DNA of 64,000 bases, from positions 14,032,614-14,096,613 of the forward strand of contig OZ020247.1 of NCBI GenBank assembly GCA_963971285.1, given 5' to 3'. Source of the stretch: Astropecten irregularis (Eukaryota > Echinodermata > Asteroidea > Paxillosida > Astropectinidae). Below are positions 3,177 through 41,400 of this stretch, piece by piece (position 1 is the stretch's first letter; every line of letters starts with the position of its first letter). The position numbers were made by a program, and so were the translations under genes. The notes under the pieces are model-generated. The model did not search any database and was not told the origin of the DNA. It was given only the letters and a program-made list of their open reading frames with translations.

Positions 3177-4408
3177 TAAAAACACATACACCAATTTTTG
3201 CCCAAACCTCCAAAAAAAAAAAGATACACAACAATTACAATCTCTGAATAATCACACACAATATTCACAAGTCGCACTTCATCTTATCTGATTTTTTTTT
3301 ATTAAAGCCTTTTGCATTTATTGAAACGTAAAACATAATGGAGTTTGAATTCTTCTTCTTCTTTTTTTTTTACAGAAATAAAGTTCTTAGCAAGCATTCC
3401 TGATTTCATTAATTGCCAGTCCACTCACATTGAAAAGAATATAATCGACATTTTCACAGTGGCATGAATTCTCCCGATATTGCATTCAAATACAAATAAA
3501 TTTCTCGTGAGCGATTCTATAATTTTCACAAACATGATAAAAGCATTCATTTGAAAATACCTTTCCATTCTGTATTAATCCAAAGCATATTTTTATGATA
3601 CTACAAAAATGACAAGCAGTACGTTTCACTGGCTTTCCAATTATAATTTTTAAGGTGTGCACAGCGCGGTTTTACTTTATGAATAATTCATTTCCGAGTA
3701 CAAAGAACTGAGTTCTTGTTGTTGAACAAGATTTGGTTGACAATTGCTGGGATTCTAAACAGAAATAGGAAGATTTATGTCACATACACTGATTACATGA
3801 ACGCCAGACTACCAGAGAAATTGCGTATAGTATTAGTGTCATTGGTGTTGGTTGCTTCCGCCACAAATAACTGACTGGCAAACTGCCAATATTCGACAAA
3901 AGATGTTCCCCTATCTAACATAAATCCAAAAAGCTTTGTGATTCACATCTTACATAGGCCTTCGTTTGAAAAAATGAAATAATTCAATCGGTTTTGCTTA
4001 TTATAAAACACTGGGATACGAACCTTCGACCACCCGTTTACAAGTGCACAGTCATAAAGGTTAAGATCATCAAACTTCATCCTGCTCAAAAATTTCATCA
4101 ATCCACATCGGTGAAGGGCAAGCCTAATTTGCAAATTTCATCTATGTTAAACAGCAGGTTTAAATCAATATAGTAATATTTTTGTTCAAAAGAATCATAC
4201 TTTCCCATCTTAGGATTGAAATAAACAGGTTCATGACATAAATTGGACGTTTAGGTTAATACTTATTACAGAAAAGGAATACATGTACATGCAGCATTCG
4301 GTTTGGCACAAAAAATTAAAAAGAAACTCTTTTTTTTTTTAGAGACATGATATCTTCATCAGCGACTGGGTGACACAGAGAAAAGCAAATCACAATAGAA
4401 ACTCATTG

Positions 4409-4565
4409 AAAAGTGAACAAAGAACAATTGGCTGGAGCGGGACTCGAATTGGCGGCCTCCTGAATACCGTACAGGCGCTCTACCAACTGAGCTATCCAGC
4501 CCTACGTTGGTGGTGACCCCCAATAGTCAATCATCTTTGTTCGTTTGGCAGTCAGAAGCCATAGA
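4409..4565 (-). repeat. tRNA-derived SINE, well preserved
   Basis: The minus-strand tRNA-like head reads GCTGGATAGCTCAGTTGG, then GAGCGCCTGTACGGTATTC, then a B-box. Six of seven acceptor-stem pairs can form. The anticodon-loop position equivalent to U33 is C, so it is not a working tRNA gene. The body ends at the shared flank with TTTGGCAGTCAGAAGCCAT. Confidence 0.8.
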
Positions 4566-5340
4566 AACTTAACATTTTTTTTAGGTTTATCTTCAGATTA
4601 CTTTCTCTGAATGCTGAACAGTATTCAATACAAACAACTTTGTATACATGTATTATGTACTTAAATGCTGGAGTCCAAATTAGAAATAATACAATAATGA
4701 TACAGCTTCTTCTGTATAAACGTGGGGCACTGTCACAACCCTGGCTCCAACGGAGTGATCCATAAGATTATCTTCCACGGGGCAAGATGTATATTCGGTG
4801 AGGAGCAATGCAGGATACATGTATAATCTTTCGTATACAAAACATTGAATACAGGTCATACATTTTGAAAACAAAAATATGAAAACATACTGATAACAAT
4901 AAAATCGGGGTAATTTTGAGAATTCTTGTAACTTTTGTACAGGATCTGAGAATCAAATGGAAGCCTAGCTTATTGCGGGGAACAGAACCGTGTTATTGTT
5001 CAAAATACACAATGGCAATGCCTGCCATTTTTGGCACCTTCATATTATAAACGTACCAAATACTTGAATTTTGTTTCAACAAAACAGTGTCACTTTGAAA
5101 GAACAAAGTACTTGGTTATTGCCTTAAAATGCAAACTACAAAGCCTGTCTGATAGCATGTACATGTAGAATGCTATGTTTTCTATATCAGTTCCCATCAT
5201 AACGTGAAACTAAACTTTAAACACAAGCACTTTTACATGTAAGTCTTCAAAAACAATTGAGAGCTCTCTTGTTCAATGAGAAAACAAAATCTTTCTTAAA
5301 TGTGGAGTGAAAAAAATTATTTGCAATTCAGCAGACACCA

Positions 5341-5573
5341 GGGGCCTTCTCAAAGCTCGACTCCGGCTCCAGCTTCGTCTGTATCAACCATACGCTGACA
5401 ATATAGGTTGTGGCTTTTCAGTTGAAGCTCTGTTTTCTTTTTCAAACCAGAGAATCTACTTCAGAACCGCGGCAAAAAGCCTCTATTTTGATACATGTTA
5501 GTTTAGAATGGATTCACGAAATGAAGCCAGAGCCAGAGCCGAAGACGGAGCCGAGCTTTAAGAAAGGCCCCAG
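5341..5573. repeat. GGCTCC-ended foldback element
   Basis: The left end GGGGCCTTCTCAAAGCTCG and the right end CGAGCTTTAAGAAAGGCCCC are inverted repeats. The interior contains AGAATCTACTTCAGAACCGC, shared with the copies at 34774 and 40815. Confidence 0.75.
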
Positions 5574-7300: not shown

Positions 7301-10300
7301 CTATGCAGTGACCGCGGTCGGCTGATCTATCTCGGACAGGAAGCTGGCCTCATCTGACGTTTCCCCAAAGCCTTCCTCGTACCACGTCACCAGACCCTGG
7401 TTCACCAATTCCTTATTCAGTGATTGAACCTGTTAGGAAGGCAAATAAAAAGACATGCAATTCATATTTTAGTCATTGAAAAGTGAAGAAAGACAAATTG
7501 ACTGGAGCGGGATTTGAACCGGCGACCTCCTGAATATGGTACAGGCGCTCTACCAACTGAGCCATCCAGCCCTACATTGGTGGTGACCCCAATAGTCAAT
7601 TATCTTTGTTCATTTGGCAGTCAGAAGCAATGAAACCAGGCACACACCGCCATATCCCAGGGATCATTTCACTGAGTTAGTTTCCCTCGTATTATGCATT
7701 ATTGCAATCATCCTGCATTCAAAGCAGTGCAATCAAAACCAGTGGTTGGATTCAAAATAGTCTGGTACCCATTTTCTTTTCAGAATTGGTGTTATCTTTT
7801 CCAAAGGGTATACAAGGAAGATGACAAGATGGATGCGCCGTGAATAAGGTCTACTGTCCATGAACACCGCCAGAAGCAAGATGATTCCACAAAATGCCGA
7901 GGGGTTGATTGTGTTGCACTGTGCAGCAGACCAATACATGTCTGCCTTGGTATCAATTACCTACCCTGCTAAATGCAACAGAATGCAGGGGTATAGGCCT
8001 AGTTGTCTATAGCACTGTTCAGTGAAATAGTACGTGCCAACCTTGGTACCAAGTACCAACCCTGCTATAACATGCAACAGACAACTCATGGTTTTTCCTG
8101 TGGTTAAGTGTGGTATCCTGCATACCACAATACATCAGTCTGGTTCTAATGGTAATGCATGGTTTAAGATCCAGTTCCCCCCCCCACCCCTGTGGAGACA
8201 CTATGGTAATTTGTGGTAAACATCACTTATGAAGAGGGTTAGGGTTAATCAAGAAGTTTGTCAATGCTCGCACAGACAATCACAGTTTGCGTACCCTTCT
8301 TTCGCTGTCCGTGTAGAAGAGCTCGATGAATGGGATCCCGTCTTCACTGTAGCCCGTCACCTGAGCCTGTAGCATAGCAAAGCTTTGGGCTACCTGCTCC
8401 ACGAAGAGTCGAGCCGTCTCAGAGAAATCATCTTCCCCTATAAGGAGAGGAAACGACACAATGACTGAAAGGGCCAACTACAGAATTCATATAAAACTTA
8501 ATACAAACATAATACAAATTCGGTTTCAGAAATCTAAGTGCCAGCCAAAAGGATGAATGAAATGCTTAATCCTAACTAATAGACATGGGATACCACCGTT
8601 TACCACATATGGTTTTTCCTGGGGTTAAGTGAGGTATCCTGAATACCACAATACACCAGTGTGGTTTTCATGGTAATGGGTAATTTAAAATTCAGTTTCT
8701 CCAGTGGAGAACTGTAGTAAATGTGTGGTAAGCAGCTCTTGTCTCATGTGCAGAGGGTTAGGGTTAATCTGTTTCAGCTACACAAATTAAAACCGAATTA
8801 AAAACACTTTTTTGACAAATTTTACAAATAATTGAAGTAAAGCCGTTACAACTTTGAAATGCTTTTGTTTGGGCGGAGACTAACCAGCTACAGGTGCGAT
8901 GTTAGACAGGTAGCACTCGTTTGCTTGGAAGGGCAGCGACATGAAGTCCGTCCGGATCTGTTTCAGGATGTAGCACTCGGTCCTTGCATAGCCGCCAAAG
9001 TCCAGGAACTTCAGGTCCACCTCATCTGTGTCCGGGTAGATGTCCACGATCTGGGCGCGGTACCAGCCTTGCATCATGGGAGCGGCGCAGATCACTCCAA
9101 CTGCGTGTTGAACAATTGAAGAATCAACATGAGAATACATACATGTGGGATTTTGTAGGAGGAATTTGAACATTCTGACAAAATTTCTACAAATTCCTAC
9201 AGAGATATAGGGAGTGCTGTGGCCTTAGTGGTCTGGTGTGTTGCATTTAAAGGTCTTGTAGTCAATCTACAGATAGTGGGTTGGAGTCCAGCTATGTTGG
9301 TGATGCATGCATCCTTAGGCAAGACACCTTGTCACACATTACTTGTCTGCATCACCCAGGAGTAAATGCGTACCTGTGAGGGTAGAGATGGCTTTGTGCT
9401 TGATAAGCCTTTGTGTGCTTACAGCAGCCAGTGCTGTATACTCCCCAGGGAGTTGAGATGGGTTCAGGAATGTACAATGTAGCCCAACGATCAGAGACAT
9501 ATCTCATTTTGATTGTGATATGTGATATTTAAAAGTGGTTTATTATGATGATGATGATTATTATCATTTCATATTATCATTAAATTCCTTAACCCCTTCA
9601 GCCCGGGGAGCATCCATAGCAGCACCACGTCATGGTCTCAGAATATTCATGATTGCTTTGTTATTTCCATTGAAATGTTTTGAATGGGGGTACTGTCTGG
9701 AACAAGAGGTTCTGGGAACCTTTATTGTCCACACAAATCCGCTCATTGTGGTACATTCACCCCATAATTTGCATTTCAAAAGATCTGCATTTTCGAGTTG
9801 ACGGCAATCTCTGAGTTCCGAAAATCTGGGCGTGAACGGAATAGAGTGCGCCTTGAATAAAGCTGCCTTTAACCCTAACGCCCCCAGGCCCTTTAAACTC
9901 CAACATTATGTTTTGTTGGGATCTGTTAGGCTGAGGAGGGTACAGTTGTTGGAATTTGCTAAGATTGATACCATGTGAAAATGATGTTTATTTTTGCATA
10001 GGGCCTTATGTACACAGTCTGCCAAATTCCAACAGTAAGCAACTGTTGGAACTTGATGAGCTGTGTACCGTTGTTATAGAGTAATCTGTTGGAGTATAAC
10101 AGGTTGAGTACAGTGGACATTACCTGACACTCCAGGCTGTTGGATTGTGTTAGGCTGAGAAAGGTATTTAGTACAAATGTCTAGGGGGTTAGGGTTAAGG
10201 GGTTAAACGCAACAACTATGACACTACACTCCTACCTTCAATCGGCCTGGGGAGTTCAGGGGTGGTGTCCCCCTGTCCGTAGCAGTTGTTCATGAATGCG

Positions 10301-17290: not shown

Positions 17291-20200
17291 ATGGGAGACA
17301 GAATGGAGAGTGTTGGAGATTATGAATACAACAAGAAAGACCTGATAGGGCACGGTGCTTTTGCAGTTGTCTTCAGAGGACGGAAGAAACGGGCAACACA
17401 GGTAGGCATATGTACAGAAAAGTCAAAAGGAGGCCTAGCTAGCTTAAAAACACTACTTTACTCTTTGAGAAATTACTTACAATTGCCTGTTTTAAAAAAT
17501 TTGCCTATTTCATTAACATTTCATTTGTTTTCATTTGCCTTTTGGTCAAGAAAGAATACCTCTTTTTCAATAATTAATATTCTTATTATGTTTTGTTATT
17601 AATTAAAAGACATATTGACGTACAATTTTTAATCATGAGCTGAATGAATGTTTATGACTCATAGTCATAAGTCATAATATTGAACAATTACATTTTACAA
17701 GCATATGTGCTCTTTATGTACTGAACTCTTCCATTTTTATATGGACCCCTAATTGAAAGTGTTTAAAATTGTACCCTGTGAAAATGTGCACACATTTAAC
17801 ATTTTTACACTAACACTGCAGTAACACTACACAAGACCCAGTATTAACTGGGGCGCTGTGCTCCCTTTTTAATTTTGGGACTTGACGGTCGCACGGCGCC
17901 CCAGTTATTGGGTCTAAAATACTAGCAATACAATATGAAGAATAGAGAACTTATAAATTAGAATTTTTTGGTTAATATCACTCAGGAGATAAAAAAAAAG
18001 GAATTTTCGTAATTGGTTCCCGTTACTCAATACCGTGGTTCACTACTCTTAGTCAAATCATGTACAGTAGTATATAGTGAGAATAATAGTAAAATATAAA
18101 CTGCTCTTTTTGGCGAAGTCAAAAATGTTTTTTTAACGTCATCCTGACCTTCAGACCAGTCTGTAATATCTGTGGCATTTAAAAAAAATTTGAAATTATC
18201 CACCAATAAACACTTTTTACCTTTTTCCACACAAAGCATCTGGGAGTTGACCAGATATTTTTCAGCACCCGTGGCTAGTGTTCATTATTTCATCATACAT
18301 ATTAAAAAATACAAGGAATGCTTTAAAAAAGTGATGAAAAATATAATTTCATTTTGTGTAACATAATTTATTCCCCCTTTATACAGACTGAGAAACTATA
18401 CAGTTTCCTTATCAACAAAATTAGAATTGTTATTTTTTTTGTTACCATTCCGAATATTTCTCCATTTGCTACATGACTCAATTGATGTAATATTGTAATT
18501 GATTGATTTTGATTTAATTTGAACATTTCATTGTTACAGAAGGCTGATGAAGTCGTTGCCATCAAGTGCATCAACAAGAAGAACTTGTCCAAGTCCCAGA
18601 CCTTGCCAGAAAAGGAAATTGAAATATTGAAGGTAATTATACCAGTACGTACATGTAACGTATGCAAAAATCAAGTCAGTTGCTCTGTGTAGCCTATAAA
18701 TCCATTTACACTGTACAATTGTATTTAAGAATTTTTTGTCATGAAATTTCATTTGTTGCACGAAAATTTTACAAACCTGCACGAACTTACATGTAAACTG
18801 TTATATTTGTTATGAGTGTAGTGTTTCAAATTGTTTTTTAATGAATTTTGTTTAGTTATCACACTATAACACAGAAGAATCTTGCATAGTAGGCCTATAA
18901 TTGCACATTAAAAAATGTGCGTGTGTTTGTGGTTAACTTATAAATTTGTTGCTGTTGCTGCCCTTTCAGCATAAAATGTTTACTGCCAGTGCATTTTAGG
19001 CTGAATGAGCATTTATTATTTGGGTGAAGAACTTTGAGTAAATTTGCATAATGTAGTCCTAATGTTTGAAGCTTCTGCTGAAAAGGAGATGCACAAGATT
19101 GGACTCCAAACAGCCTGGCTTTTTGGCTGAAAACTATGTTGTTATAAAATGGCAGTGGACGAGCCTCAGATACTAAATTACATTTATAGCTTGCCAGTCG
19201 AAAGGAAAATCAGAAAAAAGAAAGAAACATCACAATCAGACAATGCAATTTGGCCTACAATGCAATCAGAATGACCAGAATTTAATGTTTGTGCACGAAG
19301 TACATGTACCTGATAGAAAACAAGAGACAAGAAAAAGGTTCTGCCTTGAAACTGATAAAATATACGAAGGCAAACAGTGACTTGCTGGTCAGGGCCAGTG
19401 ATAAAAATAGTAATGAGGGAAGGCCTGGATATCACTGAGCCTGTCCTTGAATATCGTATTGATGACAGTAAATTATTTTTCTGTTCTGGGTGTGCCTGAC
19501 CTTCCCTGATAAAATTTCCATGGGAAAGTCCATGGACACATTTCAAGTCAGTACACAAGTTAACCATGCCCCCCCCCCCCTGCAGTAAGGTAGCATACCA
19601 AAAGGCATGGGGCAACACATATCGCGTGACTTTGATTACCCTTTTTCCCATATCTCTATCCACCGCAATGAATAACCCTTTCCTTTTTATTGTTTTATCC
19701 ACAATTCAGCAATTTTATTGAGGCATGAAAGACTTTATTTTGAAAGAAATGTTGACCCATTATTTTATTTCAACATGTCTGTAGCCATAAAAACCTAATG
19801 TCCAAACAATTTCAAAGAATAGAATAGAGAGGTTTGCCTGTTTTTGGATGTTAGTGTTAATTTCATTGTTGTAATGATTGGGTGATTTCTATGATTTTGT
19901 CTGTTCCCAAGATCTATCTATAGACCTACTCAGATGTTTTCATTGCTTAGGGCCGTATGTAGAACTTCCTTTTTCTGCAATTTCAGACAACGTTTCCTTC
20001 TTTTTCCCCCCAGGATCTTCACCATGAGAATGTTGTGTCTCTGCTCCATTTTAAGGTAGGTTTGACTTAATATCATCAAACATTTTACAACCGGTTGGCC
20101 ATGTACATGTTCATTCTAAGCAGAGCGTACTGGCCGAATCGTTTCAACATATCTTTCGAAGTAACCTTTCTCTTTAATAGGGAAGTCGTTCATATATACG

Positions 20201-26200: not shown

Positions 26201-29200
26201 TGTCTATTGTGTACAAGCTTTTAAAATGTTACTTATTGGAAAACTATTTCACTTAAAAAATAACACTTGAATATAAATTACAGTAAATTATAATGTACCC
26301 AAAATGTTTAATTTTGGATTGACCCACATACATACAAACAATCATTTCTTATTTCTACCATAAGTCCTGTAAAATGTCTTATGCAGTCATGCAACTTGAG
26401 GAAATTCCAATCTTAATCATGCTTTGTAGTTTGTTCAGTGTTTGCCACTTTTCAATGGCAAATGAGTGAAGTGAAAGAAAAAGAGATGAAATCAGCTGAT
26501 CCGAGGAAGAGTTGCATGCCTGCTTATGGCTCTCAAGTTTGTTCAAATTCCTCCTGCACAGTATCTAATAGTGCACCTGCCATCCTGGTGGAATTTTACA
26601 TTACCTACTGTACGTACAATATGAACTGTCATCAGATTATAAATGCAGACTGGTCAACATGATCAAATCAGGCTGAGGGAAGATGTTCATTTACATGTAG
26701 GTTATAAAAGACCCTGGCAAGGATTCTATTAGTGTCACAGTGTCAGATAAAGATGTGCATGTTGATGCAGGGGCGGATTCACAGGGAATCTTCTACAAAA
26801 AAAAAGAAAAAGAGAAGAAAACAGGAAAGAAAGAAGAAAAACCAATATATAGGGAGGGAGAAAGACTCAAAAGGACAAGGAAAAAGCCTGGGGAGACAAA
26901 ATTAGCTAGCTTTGATCTCCCTGAAATGCATCCTGAGTCACTATTGAATTGGCGCATTTTATATCCACGCCCCCCTTTTGGAAAATCCTGGATCAGGCAT
27001 GTACTTTTAGTTTTACATTAGCACAGTGTACCTTTTTACTGTAGCCTACATAAAACATGTACAATTGTACATGTACATACATGTACATTGTACATTCATG
27101 TACATGTATTGTACTGTACATCATACAAGTACTTCCCATCAATTGTTCCCATACTTGGCTCCCTAAAAATGTGCAGACACGACTGTTCATTACCAAGATT
27201 GTACATGAGTAATATAACATTGCATAATCATGTGTAATACATAATACATGTAGGTCTACAGTGTACGTCAATTTCTTTTGAAAACCTCCATATTCAGCAT
27301 ATTATGCACCAGTAATGGTTGAACCTTGCTTGATAAGATTTGTATTGCCTGAGCCCTATAGTGGCCGGTTCACAATCCCTGCTCAAATCTCATTTGCTTG
27401 AGGCATTTCATAATATTTAATGATTGGCATCCCTATACATGTACATGTAGCATAGTACAAGTACAGTATGTATACTTGGCATGAATATTGTCACGTTAAA
27501 TAGAAATACATATGTACAGTATGGAAATCAAACAAGTGACAATGTATCACACATTTCATGATTCCTGACAAAGTCATTTTAAAGTAAACTCAATAGGCAC
27601 AGCTAGTTTAAAGGTAGCCGATACATTTTACTGCATTTTGTAATGGTAATTAAATCCTGATGAGAAAATGGGAAAATTATTTTCCCAGCTCATAATAGAA
27701 TACAATGTATAATTTATGTCTCATGATGGTGTTGTGCTACAATGGTTATATCCAAATACCTTCAAAAACAAAATAATGAAAATGTTAAGTACTGTATGTG
27801 AACAGTTGAATGTTTGCTTTTTGCCATTATTTTAACAACATACGCCTATAGGCCTACACTGCACATTCCTTGGGTCATGTACAAATAATGGTAAACACAC
27901 AAACTACATTGTAGAATTGTGTTTTACTATTGTGTTTACCCTGGTGCAAAGTTGATAATCGTATCCTGTTTGTATTCAGATTTTTGTATGTTGGCATACT
28001 TCCCAGTCATCCTGTTTATAATGGATTCAATTTCTTTGTGTGAATTCATAGAATCACCATGCACATCATTTACTGTTATGGGTGATGTGATAATTTGTTG
28101 TTAGCCAAAAAATAAAAATAAATAATGGCATGTTATTGATTGGTTCAATTTTTCCACAGGAAACTTCAACATCGATGTTTCTTGTCATGGAATATTGTAA
28201 TGGCGGTGACTTAGCAGACTACCTGCATGGTAAGATATTAGGGCTGTGCGTTCTACCCGGGTATTCGAAACCCGACCGAAACCATCGAGTACCCGGCTCC
28301 ATTTTTTCGATTCTATTACCCGTAAAAAAATAACAACCATGCCCTTTTTCATATAATACATCACTGACCTGCAAAATTGGTAGTTTTTGCAATGTCAAAA
28401 GCAGATTATTTACCGCAAATCTGTACCGAAGCCGGCAGCGAGCCACAATTATCGACGCAGTCCGGCCGCGATCTACGGTACCCGACAACGCGACGCACCC
28501 CGGCCGCGATGTAGGCCTACATGTACCGACCAAAAATCCTACCGCGTACGGCAGACCATCGGAACAGACCGAGCCTACACCGTGCACACACAGTACGTAC
28601 GGTGTATACAGTATGTAGTCTTCCTGCCCACACGTGGTCGAGACTGGTGCACGTTGTTTTGACATCGTGGCTATTACGCGTTGCCGTGTGTGGGGCGGAT
28701 ACCAGTCATAGAACATTCGGGATTACCATGCTGACCATGTGCACAATGCATCGTGATTACGTCTTAATAATGCGTTTGTCGCCCTAGGAATTTTTCTCAC
28801 GTTATTTCTTAAGATCTAGCACATGTACGTGAAAAGTGTGTTTCTTCTAATTGGCCAACTGGACAAAATTACCAACTGAAATTCAAGTAAGATTTAGCTG
28901 ATCAGGAAAATGCGATTTACGAGGTGGTCAGAATATTTTACGGGGAACACGCAACGGAATAACAACCCTGACAATGCATACATCGTGTTTGATGTCTGTG
29001 TTCGATGTCGGAAAAAATATCACGCTAACTTTTGCTTGGCCTGTCATGTCGGTAGAAATAGCGTAAACTAAAATTCGGCATCCCTAAAAAAAGCCGAAAT
29101 CCGCTGAAGGTCGGGGTGTTTTGGGGAAGGTCTGGTAATTTTTTAGCACGCCTGGCTCGGAGCCCCGATACGGTACTCACCAACGGCCATTACGCAACAT

Positions 29201-29386
29201 ACTTCCTGGTTCTTAATTTCTTATGTTTTATATTATATCGCGGGTACCCGGGTACCCGCCCGTTTGGGCAAAGGGTACTCGGGTCCAAAATTACCCGTGA
29301 ATGCACAGCCCTATAAGATATTAATTTGCTCAGTCAGTTTACCATTTAAGGCCTTTTCCTAACCTTGGCTCTGGCTCCATCAATTA

Positions 29387-29455
<69 letters not shown>

Positions 29456-32400
29456 CATGTCGTGAATCCATATTTAAATAAAGTTATCAAAATAGAGACT
29501 TTTGGCTGTGGTTTGGAAGTAGATTCTCAGGTTTAGTGAAAAAGAAAACAGAGCTTCAGCTTCATTGAAAAACTTCAATTAAGCTATATTTTAAGAATTA
29601 TGGATGACAGAGACGAAGCCGGAGCCTAAGCCAGAGCCGAGGTTTGGGAAAAGTCCTTTACAAGTTACAGGCATGTTTGCGTGCTTTATTGGTGACTACT
29701 AGATTCTGGCCATTTATTATGATCAATTAGGCTATTATTCTGGCAACATGCATGATCCTACAGTTGAGTTACAGTATGATAAAAAATGAACATTCTGTCC
29801 ACTATGATGAATTGACGTGTATTGACGGTCAAAGGTTTAATTACTTAATATGGATATTAATGACAGTGACATGCATTGTATGCTCAATGTGTCTGTGTGC
29901 AACACATCACGTGCATGTATGGCCCTATCAACCATTAAAATTCTTTATAATTAAATAGTAAAATTGACATTTTGTGTTAGAGCGCCCTCTTTTGGTTTAT
30001 TATGTTCAGGTCAGGAACACAAAAATATTATGACAGCAGTCCAGACAGTGGACTATGTAAAACACATGCCTGTTTATTTACATACAATATGTACATACAA
30101 TATGTACATGTATCTCTGGGGATGCCAGAAATCAGACTGTTTCGATGTCTGAGTCACACTGTGTGTAGTACAGACTACATGTACATATGTACATGTACCT
30201 GGTGTGCAACAAAAGTACAGACTGGTCTACGTTGATGTACATAAAAGCCTGCCTTGCTATATTAAAAGGCACCTCGTTTTAAACTGCCAAATCTTCTGAA
30301 TTCTCTTGGTCCGTCAATAGACAGAGGCCTATACACTTCACAAGATACTGGATGTGTTCAATAGCGCTCCGCACTAAGGACGTCACAAAATCCCCGGATA
30401 TCAGACAAACATTGTCTCACACACGTAGTGCACATGCATGCGCACACACATTTGCATGGTTGCAATGTTTGTGTGAGATCCGGTGCTATTTTTAGCGCAA
30501 GTGCGGAGCGCTATTCATACATCTTGCACTGAAACTCATGTACCATACCCATGGTGATTTATTTCCATGGTCCTGTATGATTTGAATTTTAGAAGAAAAG
30601 ATGGAAAAATAAACAGGCAAAATTTCTGACTTGGACTTATTGCTGGGGGCCATCTTATGGCAACCTTGTACTGTCTTCCCACTGTCTATGATATACATGT
30701 AATCATGTAAGCATAGATTATAAAGTAGTCTCTTGTTACTCTCTTCCTAATCTCTGATTTAGTGACAATACAGTAGGCACAAGGTCGGTACATGATGTGT
30801 CTAATGAAATAAATTTCTGTATATAATTTGTTGCAGCCAAAGGCACATTGAGTGAGGACACCATACGATTCTTCCTAAGGCAAATAGGTATGTACAATCA
30901 GTTTCTCTGGTGTAAAGTCTGCATGCACTCCTTCTGGGGTAGTAGGTTGTGTCCCAATTCTCTGGCTGCAACCGCAAATAACATACAAGTCTGTGAAAAC
31001 TGCTGCAGTCACTGGCTAGTGGCTGGCACATAGGGGCGTGTGTAATTTGCGGTCGCAGCCAGAGAATTGGGACACGGCCTTATGGTCCCAGAAATATCCG
31101 TGTACATAAAAACTAATGTAGTTTTCTATGCAGGTTTAGACTAACATATAAGTGGGTTGGCCTACTTTAAATTGAATATTGCCTCAGATAGATTCCACAT
31201 TTTCTCTCTTGGCACATATAGAGTTGCATCGATATGAAGTATATTTATAGCCAAACAAATTGCATGCGTGATTCAGTTACACTGCTTACAGTCACTGTGT
31301 GTCCTATATAACGTTAAAAGCTGATGACATTTACAAAACCATAATTGAGACAAATTGACAAATTGAATTCTATACTGCACTTATGTGTACTTGTAATACC
31401 ACACGTTGGAAAACAGACTCAGGACTTAAAAGCCACTTGGGAAGGTTACGTTGCTTTCAAAGATGCACCGTGCATGGGGATCTTTGACTGTGCTTCAAAT
31501 CAGTCAATGCAGATATATATATGGTTTGCTTCTTAGAGAATTGTTTCCATGCCTGAAAGTGTCCATTAATTGTCAGATGTTTTTTCCCAAAACTTTTGTG
31601 GTCTTAACTAGCTTGTCTGACTATTCATTTGCAAAGTTGTAAGGATGTACATGTATACTGGCTGACTCAGGCCTGATTTTGACTGGAATAATATTCTCAA
31701 GGACTAATATTAGTTTAATTCTAGATGCAAACAAATAAGTAGAATTTATTAGTCTAGCTATCAGAAGAGTCTGTGAAATGAATTGCTTATATTAGTAAAG
31801 TTCATATGTCTATTGTTGTTTTCATTGGTAACAAAACCAAAACCTGTCTAAGTTCTTTTGCTTTAGAATATTAACCCTAACCCACCTGCTATAGTTAACC
31901 ACGAATGGTTTTTCCTGTGATAAAGTGTGTTATCCATCCTGAATACCACAATACACCTCAGTGGGGTTTGGGTTGTAATATATGGTATATGTGATCCAGT
32001 GGACACTTTGGTAGTGTATGGTAAACAGCTCGTCTTGTGTGGTAGGGGAATAGGTTAGGGGTAATTGCTTCAATCTTTTCCCACGAGCACATGTAATTCA
32101 TCTTGAACTAATACACTGGAAACTCTGCAAAGCCCAGGGGCCAATTTCATAAAACTGTTAAGCACAAAAATTTGCTTAGCACAAAAATGTCTCGCCCAAT
32201 GAAACAAGCCACCATTGAAAATTCCATTTGATATTCATGGTCAGCGAACAACAGCCAAAGAACAATCACAAGTGATACACAACACGTGGAAATTTGGTTG
32301 TTAATCCTGTTTTTATTAAGACAGAGATGTCGTGCTTAGCAAATTTTTTGTGCTTACATGTAACAGTTTTATGAAATTGGCCCCTGATTGATGTCAATTG

Positions 32401-35400
32401 CTAGAGGGCGCTATATACCTGAATTTGCTATATGCCTTTCTCACATGTATAGCTGCCGCCATGGTGGTGCTGCACAACAAGGGCATAATACACAGGGACC
32501 TCAAGCCGCAAAATCTGCTACTTAGTCACCAAGCAAAGAAGACGCCCCCTCCATCTGACATCAGGATCAAAATTGGTGAGTAGAACCGGGGACCAGTGGC
32601 ACGAAATACCGAGAAGTGTTTGGGTGAACAAGGCGAAAGCAACATTGGTTCTGTGTACACTGTATAACCTTGTGAGGACGCCCTTTATGCAGCCTTAGTG
32701 TATCTCTAAATATGCAAGCAACTTGACTTTAAGTGCTTCTTTTTCAACGATTTTCTTTCAGCTGATTTTGGATTTGCCAGGATTTTGGAGGAGGACATGA
32801 TGGCGGCAACTCTATGTGGGTCACCACTGTACATGGTAGGCACATTATAAGTTCATATTTGATGGTTCATTGCCAGTTTTTCTTCAATGGACAGCACAGT
32901 TGGTAATATGTGTGCACTGCATATAATCTAACAGAAAGTTCACCCAGTTCTGATCCAGGGCAGGATTTGCATAATTGCCGGCCTGTACTGCATCCACCAA
33001 TAGAGGGCGCTCACATACATACAATTTCCAGGCCAGTACATCTAGCATTGCTTTCTCTGAGAATCTAGGGGAGTGAAATTCCATACACATACTGCTATGT
33101 GGCATTTTATACATATGTATATGCCAACATTGATGTGCACATCCAATGGCAAGTTGTCAGCACAGGGGTCATTTTTCACAAAGCGCTAATATTGATCTTA
33201 AGTGTGAATTAATCTTAATTGCTGCAAAGTGTGTCACAAAACAATCACTATGGTGATACTGACAATTACTCAACTTCTTAATATTTATCTCAGTGTTAAG
33301 TGAAATCTAGCCTTGGGTTTGTTGATTGGCATACTTCTGTGCGCTATGTACATGTACGTACTGTAGATAATGTGACCATCATGCAGAGGCTATGCATATT
33401 CATCTCATACAGTTTAAGCAGTTGTTGTCAATGAGTTTAACATACTCTCCCTGCGCTTACTCTGAAGCAGTTCCCATGGAAGGGGTCCATTTGATTTACA
33501 TGAAGTTATAGAATAACCGTGAACCTATAGTTCATTGAGTCCCGTCTTCCTCCTTGTCCAGGCACCTGAAGTTATCATGTCCCAGCAGTATGACGGCAAG
33601 GCTGACCTGTGGAGTCTGGGCACCATCATCTTCCAGTGTCTGACCGGTTCCGCTCCATTCAAAGCCTCCAACCCTCAGGAACTCAAGAAGTTCTACCAGC
33701 GAGCTAAGCACGTCCATCCTGAGTAAGTCACATCACAAGTTTGAATATTCTCTGACGATCTATGACCAGGGGTCAATTTCATGAAATCATTGTGACACTG
33801 AGGATGGGCTATCATATACATTAAGAAGATCCTGTGTGCTTCTTGTTCCTTGGGATGGAACTGTTATCTAGGAAGATGTGGGATTGTTGCTGCTCATGCC
33901 TTTGATTTTTGTACATTATCTCTTTTTTTTTTTAGAATTCCAAGTGGCACCTCCAGGGATCTGAAGGATCTCCTCGTTCGACTTTTGAAAAGAAACCAGA
34001 AAGACAGGATAGAATTTGGTGAGTCGAAATAATCTGCTCTTCAAACTCAACCTGTTGGTGTGCACACACCAACACCCAGAATCCCAATTCCACGCTCCAC
34101 CGCATCAAGATTACTTTATAACCCATGGACTTCCCCTGCACGGCATACTCTCTACTGAGGATGGCCAGAGTACACAAGCCGGAACGTCGAGATTCAACTT
34201 CTCACCTGTTCTTTCAGAACCACACATCTGGAAAAGGGTTTATACATGTACATGGTGTCTCTGCAAACCTTCCATTCTTTCTGCTGTTAACTGTGCTTGG
34301 AATGCTTACAAGTGTGAGCTAAGTCAACTGTACAGAACAAGGACTTGAATCAGTGGAACAAATCACCGTTGCTGTACCATCTGAGCTATATCAGCCCTTC
34401 ATGTTTGTGGCCTTCCTTTTTACCAACCCCCACACTGCTAGAGGTGCCAGCCAATTTGTCATGTTTTCCATTTTCACAACTTGCCACTTTGCTCAGAGTC
34501 TATCTCACCTACACATTTTAATAAGCATTTTGAATTTTTCATCACTTGAACAGAAGTTGCAAATTGATATTTGTTTTTCAATTGTTTTGTTTATTCCTTC
34601 AGATGTTTTCTTCAATCACCCTTTTCTCGGCAAGAAAGCTCAGCCTACCTCATGTAAGTCAATTTGAGAGGTCCTTGTACATGTAACAGGATTGTTATTA
34701 ACCACTTTATGTTAGACAATGTATGTACATGTATGTAATGCAGATTCTGTGAAGGGTCAAACAAAACCTGTCATGGGGCCTTTCTCAAAACTCGGCTCCG
34801 GCTCAGGCTCCGGCTCCGGCTCCGGCTCCGGCTCAACCTCCATTTCGTGAATCCATTTTAAAATAACAGGTATCAAAATAGAGGCTTTTTGGCTGCGGTT
34901 TGGGAAGTAGATTCTCTGGTTTGAAAAGGACAACAGAGCTTCAGCTTTAATGGAAAACTACAACCTATATTTCAGCGTATGAAAACAGAGACGAAGCCGG
35001 AGCCGGAGTCGAGCTTTGAGAAAGGCCCCTAGTCTCACAGAAGGGGTAGTTACTTTTGGCCAAATAATAAAGGTCATATTTTTGATCCTGCAGAGTGCGC
35101 TCGTTTTAGCAATGCATTGCTCCCCGTTTGCATTTCATGTGACAGTTTCACCTAGCCTGGAGATGCATAATCCCAGATTCTAGTTCCTTGTTCTTGTTTT
35201 GTGTGAAGAGGATTACGATAAGGCACACAGGCTAATCAATCACAAAGCCATCTCTGCCCTCACAGGTACCCATATACTCCTGGGTGATGAGTATCAATAT
35301 GTGAAAAACATCTTGCTTAAGGATGCAAGCACCATGAACCCATGGCTGGATTCCAACCCACAATCTGTAGTTGACCACAAGACTTTGAGTACGATATTCC

Positions 35401-38400: not shown

Positions 38401-41400
38401 CCCAACCTTCCCGGCGTAGCTCCCTCCCTACCCAGTCACCACCCCCTGTAGCCATGTATGCTACTCAGGCACCGGGGGGCACTCGCTCACCGACAAACAG
38501 AAGCCAGTCTCCAAACGGGAGGTGGGTAATGGGCATGATAGAGTTCAATAAAAAACTAGAGTGCACGCTTCGTATTCAACATGCGTGCTATTGGCACTCC
38601 TGCATGGACGCGCAGCCGCCATTTTAGTTGGGGTAACTGAGCAGCCGCAGTTGAGTCCAAATACCCGGATGTTCCTCAACTGCGCGCATTGTGCGTGACG
38701 CGGTGGGAGATGCAATGTGTGCAACCATCCCGCCCAGTTAAATCAACGTTGGCTGACATGGCTGCACGTACGAACCTGGGTACGAATTGTACGCACAATT
38801 TGAAATGGGACACGCATGTTTTTCTAAGGCAATGGCGCCATGCATAGTCGAATGTATCACGCGCAGAGTGCACACTCTAGTTTTTTTTATTTAACTCTAT
38901 GCTAATGGGGCACGATCCTGAATTGAGGGTGTAATTTTTGTCAGTTTTCCACTGTTATATTGTGCAAATGGTCAGGGGTCGATTTCATCAATCTCATCGT
39001 AACTTACAATCAATCGTAGGACTTTTGATGCATTGCAGCCCTACTTAGGATACGATGGGTTATCCTTCATAACTCGAGTTACAATTGATCGTAGGGCTTT
39101 GTGAAATCGGCCCCTGGCCTGATCTCTCCTTGGCTTATGACCTCTGATCAGCAATGCTGTACTTTTCCTGCTTGAAGCTGTAGACATTACCGATAGTCAT
39201 CTATAACGGTGAAGGGCAAGCCTATAATTTCCATAATTCTATCTCCCTGACGAAATACATTAATAACAACGGTTTATTTTGTTTGTCTTTTAATTTGGTA
39301 CTCAATGTTGATTTTTTCATAAATATTCATTGAACAATTTGAATTTTATGATTAAACATGTAAAAGATTCTTGAAACATGAATTCTCGTGAGAATATGTC
39401 AAAATTGATTAGCTAGAAAGGATGTAAACTTTGTGATAAAATGCATATGTTTTGTCTATCTAACTCACCACCAGGCCTACAAGTCTTCCCATAGCCGCTG
39501 GATCACCGGACCAATCCAAATTGAGTCCGAATAGCAAACACTACCCTCCTGGTATCAAGATGACGCCCCCGGCCTCAACCCCCAGCCCTCAAAGTGCAAT
39601 AAGTCCATCCAGAAATTCACCACAGGTAAGGTTACCCGGAAATATTAAGAAAAAAAATAGTCCATGAAAGAATTGGTGTATTACCACTCTGAAGCTGGCT
39701 TTCCAGGAGAGCGGTCTACAAACAAACATACCCGGTAGACTCCCAAACACACTTGGAAGCCAGGTTTATCTTAGATAGAAAGAAAGAAAAGAATGCCTTT
39801 ATTCCCTTTTCTGTCTGGTGGTCCACTTTAGGTCAGAAATGCAATTGGACACAAAATGGAATGACAATGATTGGACCTAGTTTGTGGAAGAAGAAGCATT
39901 TTGTAATTTTGAAGAAAATGACCACTAATAGTGACCATTGGGTGACCATTGGGTGACCATTGGCCGAATGTGCTAGTCACCACATATCAGGCTCTGGCCA
40001 AGCTAGATTCTGTTTGAATTTGGCTCAAATCGGTGAAATCTCAGCGGGTTTACCTCTTCGGTTTATTTGCACAGGGTGCTCACCATCTCCAGTTTGGCAA
40101 GATGCCAAGTCCAGTGGCAGCGGCGGGATTGGTCTCCCCATGCAGTCTCCCCTCGTCAGGATCACCAGGTAAGCGGTCACTGCCTTCCTGGACCCAGTGG
40201 ACCATTCTGGAGGATAATACAGCTCTCCATGCACAATGCCATACAGCTGCTTGAGTGCCAAAGTTGACTGAATCACGAAAAACCTTGTTAAGTAAAATTT
40301 GGGTTGCTAGCCAGATTCGCATATCAATGTTTTGCCCAACAAACAAGCTTAGAATTTATTTGTGGCTAACACCTTGGCTATAATGTCGGAGCATTATTCT
40401 GGAACCATAGTTCTTTTAGAACTGCCACTTTTCCCTGAAAAGTTATTCGCATGATGCACTGGAAGGCTTGCCACGTCATCAGTTGTGTGGCATGAAACTC
40501 TTCACGAAGGTCTTGATATTAAGCGAGTCCATCACCAGAATCATCAGATGCCACAAAAATGTCTCCGTTTGGAAACCAAAATTTGGGCATGTCTTTTTTT
40601 CCAGGTGCAGGCGTTATCCACAGGGTCTCTGGGCGACCGCAGGCTTCCCCGTCCCCGCCCCTGTTCAGGTTCCCGGGCGGCTCCAACTCGCCCCCTCCGC
40701 CAGAGGTGGGGAGTGCCGGGGCTCACAAGTGGTCGCCACCCACGATGAAGCACCCCAGCTCAGGCTCCCCTGGAAGGAGGAAAAGTGAGTAAATGGAGAA
40801 CATGATCACAGGCTTTTACGAAACGGAGGCTCAGGCTCAGGGTCTGTCATCCATTTGCTGAAAATATAGGTTGTGGTTTTTCATTGAAGCTAAAGGTCCG
40901 TTTTCCTTTTCAAACCAGAGAATCTACTTCAGAACCGCAGCCAAAAGCATCTATTTTGATACCCGTTATTTCAGAATGGATTCACGAAATGGAGCCGGAG
41001 CCTGAGCCTTCGTTTCCTAAATGCCCTATAATAACGAAATAGAGCCTTGTAGCTGGGATTTGGAAGTAGATTCTCTGGTTTGAAAAGGAAAACAGAGCTT
41101 CAGCTTAATTAAAAATCCACAACCTGTGTTTTCAGCATATGGATGACAGACCCTGAGCCTGAGCCTGAGCCTGAGCCTCTGTTTCGTAAACCCCCTTTGC
41201 ATAATACTGCTTGTTTGGGTTTAACCATGGAAATCCGGGAATGACTAATAAGTTGCCTGTCTTCACTCTGTCACAGGTTCGTCGCCGGCTAGGATATCCC
41301 CTCTGGCGTTCACCAACCCATCCGCCCTTCCTACAATAATGGGATCGCCCACCAAGAGAAGTGACTGGATCAATTCCCCTCCCCGGACGGACAATGCCAT

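Follow-up and report, generated by a model that had tools for sequence, protein, structure and literature searches.

What places a transposon across the splice donor of an autophagy kinase gene: a preference of the transposon for donors, or chance? And does the gene take any notice? These questions arise from a 64,000-nucleotide stretch of the Astropecten irregularis genome (hereafter, the window), in which a 1,075-bp element lies only a few bases downstream of an exon of a ULK-type gene. We consider it very likely (probability roughly 0.93) that the arrangement reflects one insertion of a member of a non-autonomous (MITE-like) hAT family of the Ac/hobo type, that the donor is intact, and that the near-donor position arose by chance.

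The identity of the host gene comes from its kinase exons, located by querying with the kinase domain of human ULK1, a sequence identical to a PDB chain. These exons are ordered along the + strand, with the first ATG at 17291. Exon 3, at 20014-20055, has AG before it and GT after it. Its ungapped score is 41; the runner-up in that stretch scores 26, and nothing in a control stretch exceeds 21. Ranking against other kinases, done for exon 4 only, gives the best scores among PDB chains to ULK1 and ULK2, with NEK2 next (13 distinct sequences matched). With this match for exon 4 and further kinase exons in order, the gene is, by sequence similarity, a ULK1/2-type autophagy kinase gene. The exon and intron that concern us are as follows:

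28160..28229, + strand: coding exon 4, encoding 23 residues plus the first base of the next codon
28230..28238, + strand: 5' splice site, intact, with the whole intronic stretch that precedes the element, GTAAGATAT
28230..30836, + strand: intron 4, 2,607 bp, or 1,524 bp minus the element and one duplication copy

Exon 4 ends at 28229 and exon 5 starts at 30837; joined in silico, the two translate in frame. With the donor G at 28230, the element is separated from the exon by nine intronic bases, GTAAGATAT, and not by the eight that a previous reading of this DNA from its sequence alone had counted. That sequence-only reading also held that a functional donor is retained, and the sequence agrees with this: the GT sequence is intact upstream of the element, and the frame from exon 4 to exon 5 is restored in silico. 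The element itself is delimited by the following features:

28231..28238, + strand: left copy of the target-site duplication, TAAGATAT, from direct reading
28239..29313, + strand: non-autonomous hAT element, 1,075 bp, assigned from its ends, its copies, and Pfam
28239..28253, + strand: left terminal inverted repeat, TAGGGCTGTGC-G-TTC, 11 perfect, 14 of 15
29299..29313, - strand: right terminal inverted repeat
29314..29321, + strand: right copy of the target-site duplication, TAAGATAT, with A just before it, from direct reading

The first letters of the element are TAGGGCTGTGC and the last are GCACAGCCCTA; written out, the inverted ends are TAGGGCTGTGC(G)TTC and GAA(T)GCACAGCCCTA. They pair at 11 of 11 and at 14 of 15 positions, and the mismatch, at position 12, is present in the family consensus too. 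Such short terminal inverted repeats are in keeping with a hAT element, for which lengths of 10-25 bp are given in PMC3942097. Thus, both the perfect 8-bp duplication beginning at the donor T and the perfect 11-bp ends, at 28239 and 29313, are as originally described. Within the window, the exact end 11-mer occurs at the two element ends only, and its occurrences with up to two mismatches are at chance level (11 found versus 10.4 expected). The right-hand TAAGATAT copy is unusable as a GT donor because A precedes it, in the CCCTA that lies directly 5' of the duplication; on this point, too, the original description was correct. An empty allele, lacking the element, would read GTAAGATATTAATTT. 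The exon-side flank is present once in the assembly, and therefore no second haplotype is seen there.

The element has many relatives in the genome, which comprises 475.7 Mb. Specifically, a 29-nt left-end pattern, with up to three mismatches allowed, is found at 173 places (100 of them listed), and an exact 19-mer is found at 117; the counts are 0 in the reversed control and 0 in the control, respectively. From 1,326 first-look candidates, 40 copies were scored, the window copy among them, and all 40 cover 1,072 to 1,075 of the 1,075 bases at 96-100% identity, although as the copies closest to the window copy they form a biased sample. Perfect 8-bp duplications flank 41 of 45 complete copies, meaning those read with both flanks (38 of 42 plus 3 of 3, window copy included). 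Among the four exceptions, L002 matches at 7 of 8 positions, and so does L027 when its end is allowed a 1-bp deletion; a duplication is absent from L013 and L025. Three further loci, L152-L154, taken from the exact 19-mer places but outside the 100 listed left ends, are also non-coding members of the family; one of them lacks 30 bp internally. The 40 near-full-length copies and the 41 perfect duplications together exclude a chance origin of the observation. The sequence-only reading had named family members lacking 8-bp duplications as the finding that would overturn its hAT call, and it had proposed a genome search for same-ended copies; that search instead returned the 41 duplication-flanked copies, and the call stands.

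Flanks vary between copies, and the family therefore spread mainly by transposition. One pair, L039 (C8:37.88 Mb) and L098 (C8:38.08 Mb), approximately 194 kb apart, has the same upstream flank and octamer. Because the flank is shared, a segmental duplication probably copied the element along with it in this case.

How old is the insertion? Perfect ends and perfect duplications, from which a fairly recent event had been proposed, do not date the window copy because both are the rule in the family. From the majority consensus of the 40 copies, the window copy differs at 13 of 1,075 positions (1.21%), and 7 of these differences are private. Its divergence ranks 31 of 40 (mean 1.13%, range 0.37-2.80%). 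The family looks young, and recency thus fits the family as a whole; the window copy, in contrast, is not among the least diverged members and lies slightly above the average of the 40 compared.

The longest stop-to-stop frame of the element is 167 aa, and six frames of 57 to 167 aa yield no Pfam match above the cut-off; weak matches below the cut-off occur in three of the six, none of them to a transposase. Conserved ends, many near-identical copies, and this lack of coding capacity, as judged by Pfam on the six frames, are what characterize a non-autonomous element or MITE. A short motif, GGGTACYC, is concentrated near both tips:

28259..28266, + strand: first subterminal motif, GGGTACTC in the consensus and GGGTATTC in the window copy
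28287..28294, - strand: GGGTACYC (inverted), left end
29242..29249, + strand: GGGTACYC, right end
29250..29257, + strand: GGGTACYC, right end
29273..29280, + strand: GGGTACYC, right end

Counting either strand, the consensus contains five such motifs, at positions 21, 49, 1005, 1013, and 1036, none of them farther than 72 bp from an end. Two thousand mononucleotide shuffles contain a mean of 0.034 and a maximum of 1. In the window copy, the first motif has been lost through a private change at element position 26. The BED domains of Hermes transposase bind subterminal repeats concentrated near the tips (PMC10368747). By analogy, the GGGTACYC motifs are probably binding sites for the BED domains of this family's transposase, and we treat them as candidates for that role.

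Could the insertion alter ULK expression? The notion would be that a CpG-rich, possibly unmethylated body, together with a subterminal hairpin, changes splicing or starts transcription. The body is indeed CpG-rich, as the sequence-only reading had it: the observed/expected ratio is 1.31 in the element versus 0.52 in the rest of the window, and the 40 copies show only a mild excess of transitions at CpG (0.43 versus 0.33 per site). A 12-bp subterminal hairpin is predicted in both the minimum-energy and the centroid structure, and one internal donor-like GTAAGA lies near consensus position 650. In the minimum-energy fold, part of the donor pairs with the left end of the element, but the centroid structure lacks this pairing, and shuffled sequences fold as well as the local one (z -0.48). 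Compared with the empty site, the element raises the predicted accessibility of the donor in three of four context lengths and lowers it in one. The donor sequence itself is unchanged. From 100 flanks, four context lengths, and shuffles, nothing firm emerges regarding donor targeting, accessibility, or RNA folding, and we view an influence on ULK expression as quite unlikely.

A non-autonomous element presupposes a transposase made elsewhere. The genome contains 66 hAT dimerization-domain matches among 108 candidates. For 41 of the 66, the neighborhoods were scanned for the family ends: 30 across 1.5 kb on each side with at most one mismatch, one within L071, and 10 with at most two mismatches, eight of these on the 3' side only. 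In these 41 neighborhoods, no autonomous partner bearing the family ends was found. Exact family ends near hAT domains occur only in complete non-coding copies (L071 and L072), L049 has a single one-mismatch end, and five of the 10 further loci have single two-mismatch end sites, a degree of match that also arises by chance in the window. Two candidates had promising positions, L071 and L046/L072, but both proved to hold complete 1.08-kb non-coding copies with their own duplications. L079 and L080, genes with long hAT frames, were also set aside, as they show no duplication-flanked pair of ends in the stretches read.

Other observations surround these hAT domains. Pieces of the element interior (33-89 bp, 80-90% identical) lie near the domains of L046/L072, L049, L062, L070, and L075 and are possibly traces of related elements. 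A different hAT-like unit, spanning 289-6103 of L073 (G000:C21:6919500-6926500), surrounds a hAT domain; its ends, CAGTGTTGTAGT, are perfect over 12 bp, and its duplication, CTAGTTAG, is 8 bp long. Finally, 27 of the 66 domain matches fall within one 3-Mb stretch (G000:C11 19.2-22.1 Mb), which would be either an array of genes of hAT origin or a graveyard of transposons.

Target-site preference provides a further handle on the type of element. We compiled 99 octamers, 39 checked on both sides at a match of at least 7 of 8 and 60 from left flanks only, with one flank counted twice. T occupies position 2 in 59 of the 99 and A occupies position 7 in 43. Accordingly, nTnnnnAn, the preference of the Ac family, fits 23 octamers versus 8.5 expected. 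The preference of the hAT Buster family is nnnTAnnn, which is present in 8 of the 99, close to what the background frequencies of T and A, multiplied, would give. For its part, nTnnnnAn is described as the target preference of hobo (PMC8961557) and of Hermes (PMC10368747).

These data bear on whether the element is a hAT at all. The P and Merlin types are superfamilies that also make 8-bp duplications, and the element could belong to one of these or could owe its spread to segmental duplication. In keeping with such a reading, no transposase is recognized in the element, the 41 of 66 neighborhoods scanned supply no autonomous partner, and one pair of copies, L039 and L098, has a common flank. 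Against it are the nTnnnnAn preference combined with the clustered subterminal motifs, and duplication is excluded as the general mode because copies have different flanks and duplications of their own. We judge both versions of this alternative very improbable.

Among the octamers, GT occupies positions 1-2 in 23 of 99, versus 5.9 expected. One could imagine that copies abutting donors, including the window copy, act as intragenic modules resembling CpG islands that change host splicing or transcription. If so, a CpG-rich, little-decayed family body set beside CpG-poor host DNA, in targets that begin with GT, would alter host genes. This idea strikes us as a long shot.

That the family targets splice donors outright is scarcely credible. 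The excess of GT would favor it, as would a second flank, which reads ATG-GTGAGGTT and has its insertion behind the eighth base (L039; L098 carries a copy of this flank). The window octamer, however, is out of register, beginning at the T of the GT, and GTRAG occurs in the last 12 bases of only 4 of 100 flanks versus 1.2 expected. Three of these four are independent, since one duplicated flank accounts for two of them, and one of the three is the case that prompted the search. On the opposite strand, GTRAG is absent from the 100 flanks. Indeed, the window octamer, TAAGATAT, has A at position 2, does not fit nTnnnnAn, and ranks 80 of 99 for fit. A special link to the splice donor or to autophagy is thus not supported, given so poor an example of the family's preference and donor-like sites near copies that are not clearly enriched. 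The closeness of the element to the exon-4 donor looks like chance.

We return to the preferred reading, a single chance insertion of a non-autonomous hAT element, and to how it could have come about. From established hAT biochemistry, a transposase encoded elsewhere would have recognized the terminal repeats and, probably, also the GGGTACYC motifs via its BED domains. The element would have been excised from another site and joined across an 8-bp stagger, and one of the staggered cuts would have separated the G of the ULK exon-4 donor from its T. Both copies of TAAGATAT would then have been rebuilt by gap repair, and therefore the GT donor and positions +1 to +9 would be complete upstream of the element. 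The element would be removed with the rest of intron 4, and, from the sequence, normal splicing of exon 4 to exon 5 is predicted. The insertion would have lengthened intron 4 from approximately 1.5 to 2.6 kb, with at most a minor effect on the gene. All that can be learned from the donor position is that an insertion by staggered cuts can straddle a donor without damage to its sequence.

How does the element compare to known systems? Hermes and hobo resemble it in their 8-bp duplication, the nTnnnnAn preference, short imperfect terminal repeats, and repeats near the tips. The subterminal motif of Hermes is AAGT/AAGC, whereas that of the element is GGGTACYC, and Hermes and hobo encode a transposase, whereas none is recognized here. 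The end sequences of Hermes and hobo also appear to differ from those of the element. Transposon insertions beside splice sites are known from maize Ds and others; maize Ds is, as here, a hAT element next to a splice site, but here the donor is untouched. Regarding the MITE-like label, a length of 1.1 kb is long for a MITE and counts against it. The BuT2 MITEs of Drosophila are, like the element, non-coding, with conserved ends, their own 8-bp duplications, and a presumed autonomous mobilizer (PMC3942097). The MITE-like Drosophila hAT element mar appears to have these same likenesses. The element is 1,075 bp, compared to 532-927 bp in D. willistoni for the short copies derived from BuT2 (PMC3942097). 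Moreover, the element is CpG-rich, whereas MITEs are described as AT-rich inside, and, unlike for the BuT2 MITEs, its parent was not found among the 41 of 66 hAT neighborhoods scanned.

A literature search confined to titles and the starts of abstracts returned six papers with the exact 11-mer, none of which concerns transposons by title, nothing joining GTNNNNAC with Hermes, and nothing joining sea star with hAT and non-autonomous. Likewise, no description of the family appeared by title in this comparison, which was made outside Repbase and Dfam. The insertion is tidy but ordinary. What it contributes is a non-autonomous hAT family of the Ac type that is well delimited and has a clear candidate for a transposase-binding motif.

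The DNA around the element and the assembly at large contain other sequences of note. A family of partly palindromic repeats, with CAGGCT/CGGCTC as its hexamer core, is present at window positions 29405-29638, 34791-35030, 40827-41177, and 5340-5556, and one of its copies is located in intron 4, shortly 3' of the right-hand duplication. Two repeats of approximately 165 bp, 89% identical, lie at 4403-4568 and 7473-7636. Both Rfam tRNA matches of the window fall within them, and they are probably a tRNA-derived SINE. Elsewhere, a stop-free 552-aa COX1 frame occurs at G000:C131:32162-33484, and contig C131 is perhaps a bacterial contig in the assembly. A COX1-like stretch with seven TGA codons on the long contig C25 (G000:C25:9951047-9952018) may be mitochondrial DNA copied into the nucleus. 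The COX1 of the mitochondrion itself, on C168, suggests an echinoderm: it is readable with the echinoderm code through NHKDIG and DRNVNTTF, both of which are conserved COX1 motifs.
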